From a bacterium (GTDB lineage Bacteria; UBP15; UBA6099; DSWB01), in NCBI GenBank assembly GCA_020061125.1, contig JAGUYV010000437.1, positions 1 to 8,559 of the forward strand: a DNA stretch of 8,559 bases. The letters are read 5' to 3'. The position numbers and the translations under genes were made by a program. The first letter of the stretch is position 1. Each line of letters starts with the position of its first letter. The notes beneath the pieces were generated by a model that did no database searches, had not been told where the DNA came from, and saw only the letters and a program-made list of their open reading frames with translations. Positions 388 to 7,515 of the stretch are shown here, piece after piece.

Positions 388-1431
388 TTACACGGTTTTC
401 GTGACTTTCTTCAAAAACCTCGGATTGTCGGGATCAATGCCCCGGGACTGGGAAATGAAGCACGCCAGGAACTGGAACGGCACGATGTAGAACAGGGGGC
501 TGATTGGCTCGTCCGGTGTCACAGGCATGGGGATGGCGATGGCGGCGCGGTCGAGCGCGGCCTTGTCCGAGGACACCACAACGGTCTCCACGCGGCGCGC
601 GGACAGGTCCGCGATGAGCCGGTTCACGCCCTGCGCCATGCGGCCCGGGGCCGCGGCCACGAACACAGGGAACCCCTCGCCCGCCATGGCGATGGGGCCG
701 TGCATGAAGTCCGCGGTGGAGAACGGCTGCGCCACCACATAATTGGTTTCCATGAGCTTGAGAGCGGCTTCGCGCACCGTGCAGTAGTTGTAGCCGCGGC
801 CGATGATCACGCAGTGCTGCATGTAGCGGTAGCGGGCGGCGATTTCCAGGATGCGGGCTTCGGTTTCGAGGGTTTTCTGCATCTGGTGGGGAATGGACGC
901 GAGGCGGTCGAAGGAGTTGCGCGCGCCGTTGAGGGCCGCGGACAGCATGGCGATGGCCAGAAGCTGCGCGGTGTAGGTCTTGGTGGCGGCCAGGGCGTTT
1001 TCCGCGCCCGCGCGCAGGCGGATGCTGGCTTCGGCCACTTGCGTTATGGCCGAGCCTGCGGTGTTGGTGATGCCGACGGTGAACGCGCCCTGTGCGCGCG
1101 CGCGGGACAGCACTTCGTTGATGTCCGTGCCCTCGCCGGATTGCGAGATGCCGATGACCACGCTGCCCTTGAGGTCAATGTCCTTTTTGTACACCGTGGT
1201 GATGGAGGGCGCGGCCAGATTGCAGGGGATCCCGTTTGCGCCCTCGAACAGGTACTTGGCGTAAGTGGCGGCGTTGTCGCTGGTGCCGCGCGCGGCCAGC
1301 ATGATGAAGCGCGGCCCCATGTCCAGAATGCGCCGGGCGATGCGCCGCACATTTTTTTCTTCGAGGCGCAGGGTTTTTTCCAGGGCCGCGGGCTGCTGGT
1401 GGATTTCCTTGAGCATGGTTGGCGTTTTCAT
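388..1431 (-). CDS. Double-SIS glucosamine-6-phosphate deaminase/isomerase (NagB-II / GlmS C-domain type)
   Basis: This 347-residue cytosolic protein has two SIS (sugar isomerase) domains and no glutaminase domain, matching the isomerase half of GlmS. First SIS: AARGTSDNA at 46-54, GISQSGEGTD at 94-103, then GAENALAATKTYTAQ at 142-156. Second SIS: GRGYNY at 211-216, EAALKLMETNY at 221-231 and HGPIAM at 244-249. Catalytic positions of E. coli GlmS appear kept: Glu228 (for Glu488), His244 (for His504) and a lysine in the C-terminal tail KKVTKTV at 341-347 (for Lys603). Such stand-alone proteins usually act as NagB-II, converting glucosamine-6-phosphate to fructose-6-phosphate and ammonia; AgaS-like isomerases are the alternative. 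A NagA-like gene follows after 62 bp with no terminator between, fitting amino-sugar catabolism. ATG at 1431 is supported by GGAG at 1441-1438, 6 nt upstream. Family is near certain; the exact substrate is inferred from context. Confidence 0.9.
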   Translation of the reverse strand: MKTPTMLKEIHQQPAALEKTLRLEEKNVRRIARRILDMGPRFIMLAARGTSDNAATYAKYLFEGANGIPCNLAAPSITTVYKKDIDLKGSVVIGISQSGEGTDINEVLSRARAQGAFTVGITNTAGSAITQVAEASIRLRAGAENALAATKTYTAQLLAIAMLSAALNGARNSFDRLASIPHQMQKTLETEARILEIAARYRYMQHCVIIGRGYNYCTVREAALKLMETNYVVAQPFSTADFMHGPIAMAGEGFPVFVAAAPGRMAQGVNRLIADLSARRVETVVVSSDKAALDRAAIAIPMPVTPDEPISPLFYIVPFQFLACFISQSRGIDPDNPRFLKKVTKTV

Positions 1432-1739
1432 GAAAGGCTCCGTGGGTTAGAGATGGTTCCAAGCGCTAAACGATTGAGCACGATCCGGGATGCTGCCTTG
1501 TACAGGTCATCAAGAAACACGATAACTCAAAAATAACGGGCGTCGCATGATTGAAAAGGAATTTTGTATGGAGTGCGGCGATTCATCGCCGCTTTGTATT
1601 GGCCGGGAATCAATTCCCGTCATGAAAGCGGCAATAAATTGCCGCACTCCAAATCTGAAAATGCTTTTCCCCCATACGGTTTTTTTTGTGATGACGATTA
1701 AACCGCCATGTTCGAGTGCTTTCAGAAATTGTATGGTCG
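1432..1739. other. 308-bp intergenic region between the PLP enzyme gene and the SIS gene
   Basis: Both flanking genes are on the minus strand. The region is lower in GC than its neighbours. It contains the compound palindrome at 1570-1650, a T8 run on the plus strand at 1680-1687, and the SIS gene Shine-Dalgarno at 1441-1438. An inverted pair TCTGAAA (1654-1660) and TTTCAGA (1720-1726) lies between the palindrome and the PLP gene. A core AGCGCT palindrome sits at 1462-1467, in the SIS leader. I could not find a convincing -35/-10 pair for the SIS gene on the minus strand, nor a classic rho-independent terminator for the PLP enzyme gene: no T-run follows any hairpin in the minus direction. A short reading frame from 1743 to 1510 crosses the region and is treated as a finding. 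Confidence 0.6.
1570..1650. repeat. 81-bp compound palindrome with three hairpins (REP/MITE-like element)
   Basis: The outer arms are GGAGTGCGGC (1570-1579) and its reverse complement GCCGCACTCC (1641-1650). Comparing the left half with the reverse complement of the right half, 23 of the first 26 positions agree. Inside are three stem-loops. Hairpin 1 has an 8-bp stem, GCGGCGAT (1575-1582) pairing with ATCGCCGC (1585-1592), with a 2-nt loop. Hairpin 2, at the centre, pairs CGGGAAT (1604-1610) with ATTCCCG (1613-1619), with loop CA. Hairpin 3 pairs GCGGCAAT (1628-1635) with ATTGCCGC (1638-1645), with loop AA. GCCGCTTT (1588-1595) and AAAGCGGC (1625-1632) give a further inverted pair. Hairpins 1 and 3 differ by paired changes (G-C against A-T) that keep the stem, which suggests structure is conserved. 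No transposase lies in the window. A dispersed repeat family is my inference; the structure itself is seen directly. Confidence 0.85.
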
Positions 1740-2843
1740 TCACATATCCTCGGGCTGCTCGAAGAATTTGTGGAATTCCTCGGGCAGTTCGTGGTAGTCC
1801 TGGTTGTTGACGATGTCTGAAAAATCCGCGGAGCTGAAGGTGTGCCAGTAGAGGGCCGTTTTGCCGTGGAGTTTGCCGGCGCGGGCGTCGGCGATCAGAG
1901 CGGACGCGGCCTTGCCCGTGTACACGCCTTCGAGCTTGAGGCCCGCATGCTCGCGGAGCATGTCCACGGCTTCGTTGCCCTGTTCGGTGTGGCGGCCGTA
2001 TTCGCCGCCGAAGAACTCGCTGCGCAGAGTCATGTCCTGCGGCATGAATACATGGAAGGGGAAGGAGGGGTCCGCGGCGCGCAGGCGCGCCACGGCGAAG
2101 GTGGCGAGCTGCGCCTGGGTGAATTTGTTGGCCATGTACCACTCGGCCACGCGCACGGCCATGACCTGGGACTTGAGGCCCGCGGCGCGGCAGCCCGCGG
2201 CCAGGCCCGAGGAAGTGCCGCTCGATCCGTTGGCCACATAAATGACATCCGGCTCGGGCAGGGCGCCCTGCTCGATCTGGCGCTTGAGTTCGAACGCCGC
2301 GTTGATGTAGCCGAGCACGCCAACCGCGGACGAGCCGCCGCCGGGCACATAGTATGGCGGAGCGCCCTTGACCGTGCTGGCGGCGATGACCTCGAGCATT
2401 CTGGCGGGGATGGCCGCGGCCGAGGGGCACAGGTGCAGTTCGGTTCCGAAGTGCGCATACAGCAGCAGATTCTTTTTCACATGTGCGTCCACGGGCTGCG
2501 GGACCACGCACCCGATGGTGTCCATGCCGTGGGCCGCGCCGTGGATGGTGGTGGCCAGCAGATGGTTGGAGCCGATGCCGCCCAGGGTGATCAGTTTCTT
2601 AAAATTCATTTTCCGGGCGTGCGCGATGAGAAATTCGAGTTTGCGCACCTTGTTTCCGCCGTACTGGGCGTTGCTCAAATCGTCGCGTTTGATGAACACG
2701 CGGTCCGCGCCGATGGCCGCGGCCAGCGCCCCGCATTCCTGCACCGGCGTGGGGAAAGAGCCGATGGGCGTCCACGGGATGCGGTCGCGAAGGCGCGGGA
2801 ACAGATCGAAAATCACGGGTTCGGAATATGGGGAATCCGTCAT
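1740..2843 (-). CDS. PLP-dependent D-cysteine desulfhydrase / ACC deaminase family enzyme
   Basis: This 367-residue protein is a fold-type II PLP enzyme. The cofactor lysine is Lys65 in QYGGNKVRKLEF (60-71), preceded by FIKRDDLSNA (50-59). GIGSNH (89-94) is the substrate loop with the Ser-Asn pair; PGGGSSAVGVLGYINA at 167-182 and the phosphate-binding loop NGSSGTSSGLAAG at 205-217 follow, then EYGRHTEQG (281-289) and GVYTGKA (306-312). Two positions separate the family members: ACC deaminase has Glu295 and Leu322, whereas D-cysteine desulfhydrases carry Ser/Thr there. By hand alignment these fall on Thr309 (VYTGK) and Thr335 (YWHTF), so D-cysteine desulfhydrase-like activity (D-cysteine to pyruvate, sulfide and ammonia) is more likely than ACC breakdown. 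The protein is slightly longer than the usual 330-340 residues. ATG at 2843 has a strong GGAGGA at 2858-2853, 9 nt upstream. It probably has its own promoter. Family is sure; substrate is inferred. Confidence 0.9.
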   Translation of the reverse strand: MTDSPYSEPVIFDLFPRLRDRIPWTPIGSFPTPVQECGALAAAIGADRVFIKRDDLSNAQYGGNKVRKLEFLIAHARKMNFKKLITLGGIGSNHLLATTIHGAAHGMDTIGCVVPQPVDAHVKKNLLLYAHFGTELHLCPSAAAIPARMLEVIAASTVKGAPPYYVPGGGSSAVGVLGYINAAFELKRQIEQGALPEPDVIYVANGSSGTSSGLAAGCRAAGLKSQVMAVRVAEWYMANKFTQAQLATFAVARLRAADPSFPFHVFMPQDMTLRSEFFGGEYGRHTEQGNEAVDMLREHAGLKLEGVYTGKAASALIADARAGKLHGKTALYWHTFSSADFSDIVNNQDYHELPEEFHKFFEQPEDM

Positions 2844-2931: not shown

Positions 2932-5900
2932 TCACGCGGTCAAAGAAGCGATTGTGTCGAGGAAAGCGTCAATCTCAAAGGGTTTTGAGAAGAAACCGTT
3001 TGCGCCTGCAACGCGGCTTATGGCCGAAAGTTCGTCATGGCTCTTTGCGCTGACCAGGTAAACGAACATGCCGGCCCAGGCCGGGTTACTGCGGATGCGC
3101 TCGCACATTTCCTGTCCCGTGCATCCCGGGAGCATCACGTCCAGCAGCGCCAGGTCCGGTGTCATTCTTTCGAGAATTTTCATGGCGCTGTCGCAGTCGG
3201 GCGCGGCCAGCACATCGTAGCCCTCGGCAAAGAGCAGGCTTTCCACGAAATCCAGGAAATCGGGGTCGTCGTCCACCACCAGGATGGAGCGCACGGAGAG
3301 CGTTTCCGTATGCTCGCGCATTTCCTTGACGGGCAGGAACACCTGGAACACGCTGCCGCGGCCCGGCTCGGACTCCACGCGCACCCGGCCCTTGTGCGCC
3401 TCGATGAACTCCTTGACGATGCTCAAGCCCTTGCCCATGCCGTCGCTCAAGGGGTGGCGGCCCTGGCGCAACTGGTAGAAGGGTTTGAAAATGTTGTCAA
3501 TTTCCGAGGGGTCAATGCCCACGCCCGAGTCGTGCACGGCGATGACCGCGTGCCCGTCGCGCAGGTCCGCGGTGAACCTGAATTCCAGGCAGTGGCTGGG
3601 CGAGTACTTGACCGCGTTTTCGAGCAGGTTGTCCAGCACCTGGCGAATGCGCTCGCTGTCGCAGTACACCACGGCGCCCTTGAGCGCGGGGTCCAGTTGC
3701 TTGTCGAAGGTGAACCGTCCGTCGCGGTAGCGCTTGCTCACCAGGCTGTCGAGCATCACGCGCGCCTCTCCGAGATAGCTCTCGAGGAATTCCCACAGGG
3801 GCACATCCGCCATCTGGAACTTGGTTTCGCCGCTCTCGAACTGGGCCAGGGTGATGAGTTCCTCCACGAGCTTGAGTTCCTGGCGGCCGCGCTCGTTGAT
3901 GATCTTGAGCTTTTTTCGCACATTGTGGGGCAGGTTTTCTCGCAGCAGCATTTCGGAATAGCCGAGGATCAGGGACAGGGGCGTGCGCAGTTCGTGGGAG
4001 ATGGAGCCGAGGAAATTGATCTTGGCCTGGTCGAGTTTGCGGCGCTCGGTGATGTCCAGATCCATGCAAATGATTTCGCTGACCTGGCCGCCGCGGAACA
4101 GGGGGAACATGGTGGAATAGACCCAGCGTTCCTCGCCGGTGCGCGTGTGCACCGGCCACTCCGCGGGCGTCTTGGCCTGCCCCGTGCCCCAGATTCCATT
4201 GAGAGTTTCGAGGAACACAGCCGAGGATTCCTCATCCATGAGCAGATCCTGGAGTTTGCGGCCCACGGCTTCCGCGGCCGAATACCCATAAAGGGTTTCC
4301 GATGCGCTGTTCCACAGGTGAACGGTCCCGTCGCGCCTGAAGCCCTGTACGGCGATGAGAGGTGTGTTCTCGATGACCGCCTCGAATCGGTCCAGGGCCT
4401 GGCGCACGGCCTGCTCCGCGGCTTTGCGTTCCGTGATGTCGCGTACCAGGGCGATGCACCCGGAACCTGGCTCGCCGGGCCTGCCCTTGGGAGAAAAAAT
4501 CGCCTCGAAGGTGTGCGCGCCATCCGGCAAAGGCAACTCATATTCGATGGATGTCTTTTGGCGGTTGTTCTGCACGGCCCTGTTTGCGGCCGTGAGTTGT
4601 TCCGCCGCGTCCGCAGGCAGTACATCCTGGATAGATTTGCCGATGAACTGTCCCGGCGGCGTATAAAGGCCGCTGTCGCTGGTGGCGTGATAGTTCAAGA
4701 AAACGCCGTCCGGGTCCAACTCGAAGAGCATGTCCGGCAGGGCGTTGAGCGTGGCTTCGAGGCGGTCCTTGGTCTCGCGCAGCGCTTCTTCGGCGATTTT
4801 CCGCTCGGTAATGTCGCGGGATACTCCGAGAACGGCGTTGACCGCGCCGCCGGACTCATCGTGCAGGGGCGAAAGCTGTGTCCCCAGCCATAGGACGGTT
4901 TCTCCAAACCCGATGCGGCTTTCTTCATAAACTGCCTCGCCGGTGCGGAACACGGTTTCGAGATTCGCGCGCATGGAGGCGTAATTGTCTCTGGGGAACA
5001 GCCGTTCCAGAGGGATGCGGAAAAGCTGTTCGGGCGTGCTGTGGAACATCCCCGCGGCGAATTCGTTCACATACTCCACACGGAAATCGTCACTAATGAT
5101 AAAGATGGCGTCCTGTGCGGATTCGGCCAGGTTGCGGTAGCGCTCCTCGCTCTGGCGCAGCGCCCGTTCCGCGGCCTTGCGCTCGGTGATGTCTATGGTG
5201 AGCATCTGGAACCCGGCGAGTTCATGACCTCTCATGATGCGCGAGGGGTAGACCTCGATCCAGCGCTGCGTGCCGTCGGGAATGGTCAGCTCGATTTCCA
5301 CGCTGCCCAGGTCTTCACCGGTGACAAGGCGGGTGAACATCTCGGAGTAGCGGGGCAGGTGCCGCTCCTCGATGGCGTTGAATTCCGTGAAGTGTTTTCC
5401 GATGATCTGCTCGCGCGTGAAGCCCGTGGCCGCGAACCCGGCTTTGTTGATGTCCGTGACCCGGCCCTCGAGGTCCATGACGATGATGGTTTCGGGGTGG
5501 GAGTTGAACAGGCCGCGGAACCGCTCTTCGCTCTGGCGCAGCGCGTCCTCCATGAGGCGGCGCTGCGTGATGTCCTCGTGCATGACCACGAAGTTTTGAA
5601 TGCGGCCCGAGGCGTCGCTGATGGGGAAGGTGACAGCGCGTACACAAACCTTTCTGGGCGGCGCACCGGGGAAACTTTTTTCCGTGTCGTACCATATTCC
5701 GCTGTCGAGGAACGCTTCTCCGGCTTTGAGCGACAAAACGCTCTCTGTGCGCCCTGTTTCAATGAGATTCGGATCCTTGAACAGATTGTATTCCGAGGAC
5801 ACGGTGGCTCCGAACAGCTCGACCAGGGCCTGGTTGCAGCGCACGAAGTTACCGTCTCCATCAAAGATGCAGATGCTGTAGGGGTTGTAATCAATGATGT

Positions 5901-7515
5901 TGTCGAGCGTTGCGCGTTCCTGTTCCAGGGCTTGCTCGGCGCGTTTGCGGTCCGTGATTTCGAGAGCGGTTTCCACGGCGCCGGCCACGCGGCCGCGCTC
6001 GTCGCGGATCGGAGAGCTGCGAATGGACCACACCTTTCCGTCGGGCGTGGTGATTTCGTCTTCCACGGGCCGGCCGCTCTCCAGAGCCTTAAGCACGGGG
6101 CACTCGCAGCACGGTTCGTCCGTGCCGTACCAGAGCCGGTGGCAGTTCCTGCCGGTGAGATCCCGCGGGCGCATGCCCAGAGAATCGGCCGCGGCGCGGT
6201 TGGCCCACACGATGTTCAGATTCGTGTCGTAATACAGCACATGCTCCATCATGCTGTTGAGCACTTCTGCTTTTTCGCGTTCGCTGTCGGCCAGTTCCTG
6301 CTCGGCGCTCTTGCGGTCCGTGATGTCGCGCACCATGGTTATGACGCGCGTCACAAGCCCCTTGTCCATGACCGGAATCTTGCGGGTTTCGGTCACGACC
6401 GTGCGCCCGTCGAAATCGTTCTGTTCCTCGGTGATCAGGATTTCTCCGTGCCGGAACACCGAGGCGTATTGTTCGAGAACGGATTCCGTAAGGAACGGAT
6501 AAATGTCGGGCAGCCGCTTGCCCGCGATGTCCTGTGGCAGGCCGAGTTCGCGGTTGAATTCCTCCATGCGCCTGTTGTGCAGGATGATATTGAGATCCTG
6601 ATCCACGACATGAACGATGTCTTCCATCCAGTCTATGGTGGAGCGGTAGAACTGCTCGGAGGCCAGGAGCGCGCGCTCTGTGGCCTTGCGGTCCGTGATC
6701 TCGAGGGTGAACTCGACCACGCCCTGAACTGCGCCTTCGCCGCTCATGATGGGGTATCCGCGGATGAACCAGTGGCGGCCGTCGGGGGAGGTGATTTCCT
6801 GGTGGTGCGGCGCGCCGGTTTGCATGGCGCGAAGCACCGGGCATTTTTCGCAGGGCGCCGGGGACTCGTGCCACACTTCGTGGCAGCGGAGGCCCACCAG
6901 GCTCTGGGGCGACACGCCCGCGGAATCGGCCGCGGCCTGGTTCGCCCACAGGATGCGAAGATCCGTGTCGTGGTACACCACATGCTCGACCATGCTGTCG
7001 AGCACGCTGCGCAGTTCGGTCTCCGTGCGCTTGAGATCGTCCTCGGCGGCCTTGACCCGTGAGATGTCGGACATGACGCCGATGAAACCCGCGGGCCGTC
7101 CCTGCTCGTCGCGCAGCAAAGTCGTGATCATCCAGGTGGGGAATTCCACGCCGTCGCGCCGCACATGGCCCACTTCGCCGCTGTGCCGCCCGTTCTGGAG
7201 CACGAGGTCGTTGAACGGGATGACATCGCGCTCGAGCTGCTCCGGGGTGTGGAACATGGACAGGTTTTTCCCGAAAAACTCCTCGGGCCGGTACTGGTGC
7301 ATTTCCGCGAACCGGCGGTTGCAGAAGCGCACCGTGCCGTCCAGCGCGGCCACGGCGATGCCTTCGCCAACCTGGTCCATGATGCGCTCGAGCAGGGCCA
7401 TGCCGGCTTGCTCGTCCAATCCTAATGCGGACGCGGCGCGCGTGCGCAGAACTTCGCGCTCAAGCTCTTCCACGCGCCTTTGAAGTTCCTCGTATGTCGG
7501 CTTTTTGTCCGCCAT
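2932..7515 (-). CDS. Cytosolic hybrid sensor histidine kinase with nine PAS domains and a C-terminal receiver
   Basis: This 1527-residue protein has no membrane segment or signal peptide, so it should sense an internal signal. A short coiled coil (residues 6-24) leads into nine PAS domains, roughly 39-153, 166-277, 284-402, 413-523, 533-652, 660-779, 786-905, 913-1030 and 1037-1158; eight end in a DIT/EIT-(D/E/Q)-R-(K/R) linker helix and the first in DISRVK. Then comes HisKA with SISHELRTPL (phospho-acceptor His1174), and an HK-type ATPase: N box NLLENAVKYS (Asn1300), G1 DSGVGID (1329-1335), F box region 1343-1350, G2 GMGKGLSIV (1359-1367). The receiver spans about 1409-1523, with Asp1415/Asp1416, phospho-acceptor Asp1459, Ser1489 and Lys1511. 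All catalytic residues are present, so both modules should be active. PAS2 and PAS4 carry a matching Cys-x10-Cys-x2-Cys set. No HPt or response regulator gene is nearby. ATG at 7515 has only a weak AAAGG (7531-7527), 11 nt upstream; the KPTYEEL start just after Met is usual for such kinases. Confidence 0.95.
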   Translation of the reverse strand: MADKKPTYEELQRRVEELEREVLRTRAASALGLDEQAGMALLERIMDQVGEGIAVAALDGTVRFCNRRFAEMHQYRPEEFFGKNLSMFHTPEQLERDVIPFNDLVLQNGRHSGEVGHVRRDGVEFPTWMITTLLRDEQGRPAGFIGVMSDISRVKAAEDDLKRTETELRSVLDSMVEHVVYHDTDLRILWANQAAADSAGVSPQSLVGLRCHEVWHESPAPCEKCPVLRAMQTGAPHHQEITSPDGRHWFIRGYPIMSGEGAVQGVVEFTLEITDRKATERALLASEQFYRSTIDWMEDIVHVVDQDLNIILHNRRMEEFNRELGLPQDIAGKRLPDIYPFLTESVLEQYASVFRHGEILITEEQNDFDGRTVVTETRKIPVMDKGLVTRVITMVRDITDRKSAEQELADSEREKAEVLNSMMEHVLYYDTNLNIVWANRAAADSLGMRPRDLTGRNCHRLWYGTDEPCCECPVLKALESGRPVEDEITTPDGKVWSIRSSPIRDERGRVAGAVETALEITDRKRAEQALEQERATLDNIIDYNPYSICIFDGDGNFVRCNQALVELFGATVSSEYNLFKDPNLIETGRTESVLSLKAGEAFLDSGIWYDTEKSFPGAPPRKVCVRAVTFPISDASGRIQNFVVMHEDITQRRLMEDALRQSEERFRGLFNSHPETIIVMDLEGRVTDINKAGFAATGFTREQIIGKHFTEFNAIEERHLPRYSEMFTRLVTGEDLGSVEIELTIPDGTQRWIEVYPSRIMRGHELAGFQMLTIDITERKAAERALRQSEERYRNLAESAQDAIFIISDDFRVEYVNEFAAGMFHSTPEQLFRIPLERLFPRDNYASMRANLETVFRTGEAVYEESRIGFGETVLWLGTQLSPLHDESGGAVNAVLGVSRDITERKIAEEALRETKDRLEATLNALPDMLFELDPDGVFLNYHATSDSGLYTPPGQFIGKSIQDVLPADAAEQLTAANRAVQNNRQKTSIEYELPLPDGAHTFEAIFSPKGRPGEPGSGCIALVRDITERKAAEQAVRQALDRFEAVIENTPLIAVQGFRRDGTVHLWNSASETLYGYSAAEAVGRKLQDLLMDEESSAVFLETLNGIWGTGQAKTPAEWPVHTRTGEERWVYSTMFPLFRGGQVSEIICMDLDITERRKLDQAKINFLGSISHELRTPLSLILGYSEMLLRENLPHNVRKKLKIINERGRQELKLVEELITLAQFESGETKFQMADVPLWEFLESYLGEARVMLDSLVSKRYRDGRFTFDKQLDPALKGAVVYCDSERIRQVLDNLLENAVKYSPSHCLEFRFTADLRDGHAVIAVHDSGVGIDPSEIDNIFKPFYQLRQGRHPLSDGMGKGLSIVKEFIEAHKGRVRVESEPGRGSVFQVFLPVKEMREHTETLSVRSILVVDDDPDFLDFVESLLFAEGYDVLAAPDCDSAMKILERMTPDLALLDVMLPGCTGQEMCERIRSNPAWAGMFVYLVSAKSHDELSAISRVAGANGFFSKPFEIDAFLDTIASLTA
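5935..6264 (-). repeat. Intragenic duplication, copy 2 (PAS4 of the kinase)
   Basis: This stretch encodes kinase residues 418-527, the partner of the copy at 6676-7005. Cysteines 458, 469 and 472 sit at exactly the positions of Cys211, Cys222 and Cys225 in copy 1, and this copy has one extra cysteine, Cys470. Conserved cysteines against a background of 55% identity suggest a kept function for them. Confidence 0.85.
6676..7005 (-). repeat. Intragenic duplication, copy 1 (PAS2 of the kinase)
   Basis: This stretch encodes kinase residues 171-280. It aligns without gaps to residues 418-527 (copy at 5935-6264), with 60 of 110 residues identical by hand count. The copies are offset by 247 codons (741 bp). 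The shared features are an EHV start, ANxAAADS, a CH..W segment, PCxxCPVL and ITxPDG, ending in LEITDRK. The other PAS domains of the protein are visibly more distant, so these two are recent paralogues within the gene. Confidence 0.85.

Follow-up and report, generated by a model that had tools for sequence, protein, structure and literature searches.

What is the palindrome that lies between two genes in this stretch of DNA from a bacterium of the UBP15 lineage, and by what could it have been moved? The stretch analyzed, here called the window, is 8,559 nt long and belongs to a 4.1-Mb MAG (G000) of 513 contigs that is 79% complete. The preliminary description had reported an 81-bp near-symmetric palindrome at positions 1570 to 1650, with GGAGT/ACTCC arms and three stems of 7 to 8 bp with 2-nt loops. 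The coordinates and the stems were confirmed, as was the location between the PLP enzyme and SIS genes, in the gap from 1432 to 1739 (Table 1). In order, hairpins of 8, 7, and 8 bp follow one another between GGAGT and ACTCC; the spacer after the first is 11 nt and that after the second is 8 nt, and the loops are 2 nt in all three hairpins. The outer stems, GCGGCGAT/ATCGCCGC and GCGGCAAT/ATTGCCGC, are one compensated pair apart, in agreement with the claim that their differences are compensated.

Table 1. Features of the palindromic element and its neighbors (window coordinates)
Feature	Position	Strand	Remarks
SIS-domain sugar-phosphate protein, GlmS/NagB-II-like	388-1431	-	Neighbor, context only
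Left flank common to this copy and C467 (second full copy) only	1538-1566		Absent from the family; two-copy alignment
Left terminal trinucleotide TAT (relatives, T[T/C]T)	1567-1569		Outer left limit of conservation
Whole inverted repeat	1569-1595/1625-1651		Arms of 27 nt, 89% complementary
Left tag GGAGT	1570-1574	+	Invariant across the 14-copy alignment, which was selected on GGAGTGCG
Hairpin 1, GCGGCGAT-TC-ATCGCCGC	1575-1592	+	Perfect 8 bp; 98.2% of cells paired; 3 pairs changed on both sides
Central hairpin CGGGAAT-CA-ATTCCCG, untagged	1604-1619		Perfect 7 bp; 85.7% of cells paired; weaker covariation
Hairpin 3, GCGGCAAT-AA-ATTGCCGC, inverted REP-like unit	1628-1645	-	Perfect 8 bp; 98.2% of cells paired; 5 pairs changed on both sides
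Right tag ACTCC (GGAGT on the - strand)	1646-1650	-
Right terminal trinucleotide AAA	1651-1653		Outer right limit of conservation
PALP-fold PLP enzyme, D-cysteine desulfhydrase/D-cysteate sulfo-lyase-like	1740-2843	-	Neighbor, context only

The folding energy of positions 1540 to 1680 is far below that of dinucleotide shuffles (z scores of -6.7 for RNA and -5.6 for DNA; 0 of 200 shuffles as low). Seven hairpins with a stem of 7 and a loop of 2 are present in the window, compared with 0.92 per shuffled window, and the hairpin triple within 70 nt was found in none of 100 shuffles of the window. A cloverleaf plan had also been proposed. This plan stands in part: a single molecule on its own folds preferentially as one long hairpin in both RNA and DNA folding, whereas the covariation between copies supports three local hairpins. 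In the 14-copy alignment, 95.4% of the cells of the three-hairpin structure are paired, and 10 pairs (24 cells, compared with 6.9 in shuffles) are changed on both sides. The covariation score is 0.205, compared with 0.094 in shuffles, and was reached by 0 of 500. For the alternative of one long hairpin, 85.9% of the cells are paired, 7 cells are changed on both sides, and the score is 0.089; it is therefore the local hairpins that are conserved. The two outer hairpins together have eight pairs changed on both sides and are almost perfectly paired, as expected of REP palindromes, which may be perfect or imperfect and are 20 to 50 nt long with a compensated stem. Stem sequences are uniform inside one genome and differ between genomes but are still paired. 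The helix formed by the tags is invariant, in part because the aligned copies were chosen by their tag.

The element was described as a member of a repeat family, with a single genomic copy as the alternative, and the family was borne out. BLAST searches of G000 identified a second copy in contig C467 (89% identical) and short matches in C291 and C253. The pattern GGAGTGCGN{50,80}CGCACTCC gave three full copies in G000, compared with none for the reversed-pattern control; the genome has a low total of three full copies and one partial copy. The copy in C291 follows this plan, but its stems differ. Within the order of the window, exact-pattern copies were also found in genomes G001 (nine) and G005 (eight), and none was found in 53 genomes of other groups. 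A covariance model built on the 14 copies, whose counts cover both strands, the element being palindromic, had matches in all seven genomes of the order (G000 and six others) and in 26 of the 33 genomes to which named loci led. The remaining seven (G064, G065, G067, G069, G070, G078, and G092) had no match at 1e-8, and part of the pattern matches are therefore single units or chance.

In a sequence collection of 257 Gb, the tag-plus-hairpin pattern occurred in at least 120 stretches, compared with about 8 expected by chance, an estimate based on 18 specified bases and both strands. Among the matches listed, all organisms that could be identified are members of the Planctomycetes-Verrucomicrobia-Lentisphaerae group or of a neighbor of it, including Victivallis, Geminisphaera, Opitutaceae, Puniceicoccales, Spartobacteria, Lentisphaerae, many Planctomycetes, one Omnitrophota MAG, and the order of the window itself; the repeat is thus widespread in Verrucomicrobia-like genomes, as the preliminary description had suggested. 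No match was found on plasmids, and only five stretches were found in 2.9 million viral contigs. A literature search for the DNA motif and for the peptide strings encoded by it found no paper. The copies are multiple, dispersed, and mostly intergenic, as in REPINs: 10 of 35 copies lie inside ORFs, compared with 75% of random positions, and some of these 10 ORFs are made by the repeat itself.

Tag and hairpin were also found to go together in a test that does not rest on the hairpin. In transposase loci, a perfect hairpin with a stem of at least 6 bp comes after TTGGAGT at 36 of the 41 places where this heptamer occurs. In the named loci, which were themselves fetched with a hairpin pattern, such a hairpin comes next at 123 of 216 places, whereas six control heptamers gave 2 of 309. 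The element ends sharply. At 26 tag ends in G001, positions -3 to -1 (T[T/C]T) carry 1.2 to 1.6 bits and positions farther out carry at most 0.54 bits; conservation thus ends 3 nt outside GGAGT, and the neighboring sequence is unrelated between copies. Six copies in G001 (L225, L227, L232, L233, L235, and L236) have in common a ACTTGAATTT-like flank outside the ACTCC end, perhaps a preferred target or the end of a longer subfamily.

The 27-nt terminal inverted repeats and the low-copy, dispersed distribution would also suit a MITE of a DDE transposon, moved by an unrelated transposase. However, no target-site duplication or direct repeat was found at the inspected copies, each arm is a compensated hairpin, which a DDE element does not need, and the palindrome lies on the flanks of a clade of Y1 transposase genes (see below); we consider such a MITE very improbable. 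One locus pair (L262/L184) bears on insertion: half an element is present in one species and missing at the orthologous site of the other, a difference that could be a deletion between short repeats instead of an insertion. Adjoining it, at about 982 to 1040 of L262, there is a second, palindrome-free indel of ~60 bp relative to L184. The copy at L257/L268 is common to both loci, with no empty site.

The very stable RNA fold, the mostly intergenic copies, and the compensated stems are also what would be expected of a structured RNA, or of a transcription terminator or processing signal between co-directional genes, kept for regulation and copied by chance. However, an Rfam search gave no family at the element, its sole match being a sub-threshold msiK elsewhere, and there is no U-run after the window palindrome in the direction of the neighboring - strand genes, so that a terminator role is not indicated. 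Moreover, the copies stand beside unrelated sequence, with conservation ending just outside the tag, and the palindrome flanks transposase genes, which makes this explanation highly improbable.

Mobilization in trans by a RAYT transposase had been suggested for the element, and a candidate enzyme was found in another genome. Contig C2 of genome G004 contains an intact gene for a 178-amino-acid Y1 transposase (P0001), with a full palindrome on each side as well as half copies. A search of 41 genomes with P0001 gave 12 loci at ≥42% identity, and the palindrome was present in the flanks of all 12, on both sides in 11; these are repeat-flanked genes. The carrier genomes were picked by the palindrome, but the control consists of further Y1 genes taken from these very genomes. 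Among the other Y1 loci first compared, many of them from the same genomes, 1 of 25 had the palindrome (Fisher P = 7e-9). In six genomes rich in the palindrome but lacking the cognate gene, 2 of 30 further Y1 loci (L278 and L292, with one copy each) had the palindrome within 1.5 kb, and several of these 30 carry ordinary GTAG or GTGG REPs. A homologous gene on a Planctomycetaceae contig (L101) has one palindrome end 3' and seven tandem palindromes with a period of ~126 bp 5' (positions 861 to 1725), adjoining the gene; the middle of these copies is unrelated to the central hairpin of the window. The palindrome is also found in frame within a transposase gene (L200; 1489 to 2181, - strand), ahead of the conserved domain.

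The 11 longer proteins of the P0001-like clade form one group (support 100/97). P0001 scores above the cut-off of NF047646 (REP_Tyr_transpos; 92.3 versus 80), with two relatives slightly under it, and above the cut-off of Pfam PF01797. Residues N63, H64, Y65, and H66, together with Y125, are invariant in the clade profile (A4), matching an HUH motif and a catalytic tyrosine. The only PDB match of the profile is 4ER8, E. coli TnpA-REP, and this match at the sequence level indicates the fold of the enzyme. The RAYT link is therefore well supported for the family by sequence comparison, and from it we infer mobilization. The suggestion is thus supported for the family, on the basis of the flanked loci in other genomes, but no cognate gene was found in G000 itself, with either the single P0001 sequence or profile A4, in an assembly 79% complete.

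The cognate gene was likewise not found in about 20 other carrier assemblies, some of them nearly complete, and carriers and enzyme are therefore not strictly co-occurring. The enzyme may often have been lost after a burst or be hidden by incomplete assemblies, or another enzyme may act. Several carriers without it hold dozens of palindrome matches (86 in G071, 54 in G080, and 40 in G082, both strands counted), which, together with the almost perfect pairing of the outer hairpins, would suit an element that was formerly mobile and is now kept by the host for another, transposase-independent role (a nucleoid or gyrase site, mRNA stability, or recombination). However, the within-genome uniformity of the stems and their difference between genomes are expected from spread inside each genome, copies cluster at transposase loci (e.g., the tandem array at L101), and incomplete MAGs can hide a gene; we regard a host-kept role as very unlikely.

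Y1 genes in G000 and G001 other than the P0001-like ones were also inspected. A gene of G001 (L040; 1315 to 1977, - strand) stops within a few bases of an intact palindrome. It was rejected as the cognate enzyme and taken as a chance neighbor because its HUH motif is broken (FPDSLHL) and the gene is outside the clade; its product is possibly a domesticated or decaying enzyme. Two Y1 genes of G000 (L047 in contig C79 and L043 in contig C406) are 86% identical and are flanked by GTAG-tagged hairpins (TTGTAGGGCGGGGTCACCGCACCCCGCC). These are ordinary GTAG REPtrons of G000, separate from the GGAGT family. Near both sides of a further Y1 gene in G000 (L034, contig C460) there is a 28-bp direct repeat, GGGACACCATACTTAATTATTGACAAAT-like, at 525 to 552 and 2084 to 2111, which is flanking repeat material of another type.

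In the copies analyzed, the GGAGT family has sharp ends and stems that are compensated and specific to each genome, and it is found on the flanks of a single clade of Y1 (HUH) transposase genes. Window positions 1567 to 1653 very probably constitute a non-autonomous REPIN-like element tied to this clade and probably orphan in its own genome, where the transposase gene probably was lost or else is in the fifth that the assembly lacks. The element consists of two REP-like units, each comprising GGAGT and a perfect 8-bp hairpin, placed head to head around a short middle, which in the bacterial order of the window carries a third hairpin. By analogy with the TnpA-REP enzymes of E. coli, Stenotrophomonas, and Marinomonas (PMC8266576), the transposase would bind tag and hairpin in single-stranded DNA, cut at a short site that the tag determines, and move the units without target-site duplication. 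The cut dinucleotide may be chosen by pairing with the tag; in this family the cut would lie beside T[T/C]T, the CT of which could pair with the AG of GGAGT.

By definition, a REP carries a conserved 5' tetranucleotide, GT[A/G]G, at its hairpin foot (PMC3686654, PMC8266576). No GTAG or GTGG tag is present at the window element, and since the tag is GGAGT in all aligned copies, the element falls outside the strict REP definition. It nevertheless contains two inverted tagged hairpins (GGAGT-hairpin ... hairpin-ACTCC), and the whole unit folds into a larger hairpin, as in a REPIN. It shares with REPINs and BIMEs two tagged head-to-head hairpins, a size of ~90 bp, intergenic and dispersed copies, genome-specific stems, and the lack of target-site duplication, but it differs in having GGAGT in place of GT[A/G]G and, in the order of the window, an additional untagged central hairpin. 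As in REPtrons (Quentin 2018, PMC6006769; Di Nocera 2013, PMC3733652), an HUH-Tyr Y1 gene is flanked on both sides (L194, L101, L200, and others). The NHYH, W[FHY], and YVH[NQ]N motifs of the clade resemble NHYH, W[YH], and YIHYNP of TnpA-REP subclass 2.8. However, that subclass is cyanobacterial with GT[AG]G tags, whereas the clade described here is from PVC-type bacteria and has GGAGT. Class 3 TnpA-Y1 genes of Planctomycetes are associated with CnGA-footed hairpins (Quentin 2018, PMC6006769) and share with our clade the presence in Planctomycetes and the atypical tagged hairpins that flank the gene and have copies in the genome. They have CnGA, Y----Q, and NHVH, whereas our clade has GGAGT, YVH[NQ]N, and NHYH.

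The TIR repeats of TIRYT genes (Di Nocera 2013, PMC3733652) are inverted or double-palindromic non-GTAG repeats that flank RAYT-like genes and are repeated in the genome, and in this description they resemble the GGAGT family. The available text of that report names no TIRs from Planctomycetes or Verrucomicrobia, and it gives O. terrae (Verrucomicrobia) as rich in GTAG REPs. The in-frame insertion in the coding gene at L200 is reminiscent of Rickettsia palindromic elements and in-frame REP insertions; compared with the Rickettsia elements, the GGAGT family is mostly intergenic and has another sequence and another host group. With its REPIN architecture and RAYT association, the GGAGT family belongs with the known REP/REPIN repeats, as a variant that carries another tag and is not a kind of its own. 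In a broader proposal, which we judge to have an even chance of being correct, GGAGT would be a third guide tag beside GT[A/G]G and CnGA, used by a separate RAYT clade that spread with its repeats across PVC-type bacteria, tag and transposase having changed together, and most present carriers, G000 among them, would have lost the enzyme and kept orphan repeats. Automatic REP searches required GT[A/G]G. A GGAGT family that has a RAYT clade to itself and is common in Planctomycetes, Lentisphaerae, and Verrucomicrobia would be a tag exchange made by nature, on which the control of TnpA-REP cleavage by the guide sequence could be tested.

The suspicion that the repeat is read as protein was correct: spurious ORFs run over the tandem copies at L101 and yield strings such as AAINRRTPKRLWSAGIYSRF. 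The two peptide strings named are likewise genuine, GDESPHS being present in a spurious ORF of the window and ECGDSSPL being the forward translation. ECGDSSPL also occurs in a real protein, the L200 transposase, in which the in-frame palindrome is read as LECGDSSPLSGK...AAHSK just upstream of the conserved domain. The palindrome thus accounts for a group of spurious ECGDSSPL- and GDESPHS-like peptides annotated in genomes of Planctomycetes, Lentisphaerae, and Verrucomicrobia and likely for some contig breaks in metagenome assemblies of these bacteria. In G002 and G004, the palindrome lies inside a larger repeat of ~258 to 270 bp with 95 to 99% identity (L261, 713 to 982; L272, 1411 to 1667; L131, 1 to 270; L060; and L065), which is often at contig ends and therefore likely breaks these assemblies. 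Elsewhere in the window, a 1,527-amino-acid ORF (2932 to 7515, - strand), reads, as judged by eye, as a histidine kinase that has numerous PAS-like repeats and, at its C terminus, a receiver domain.
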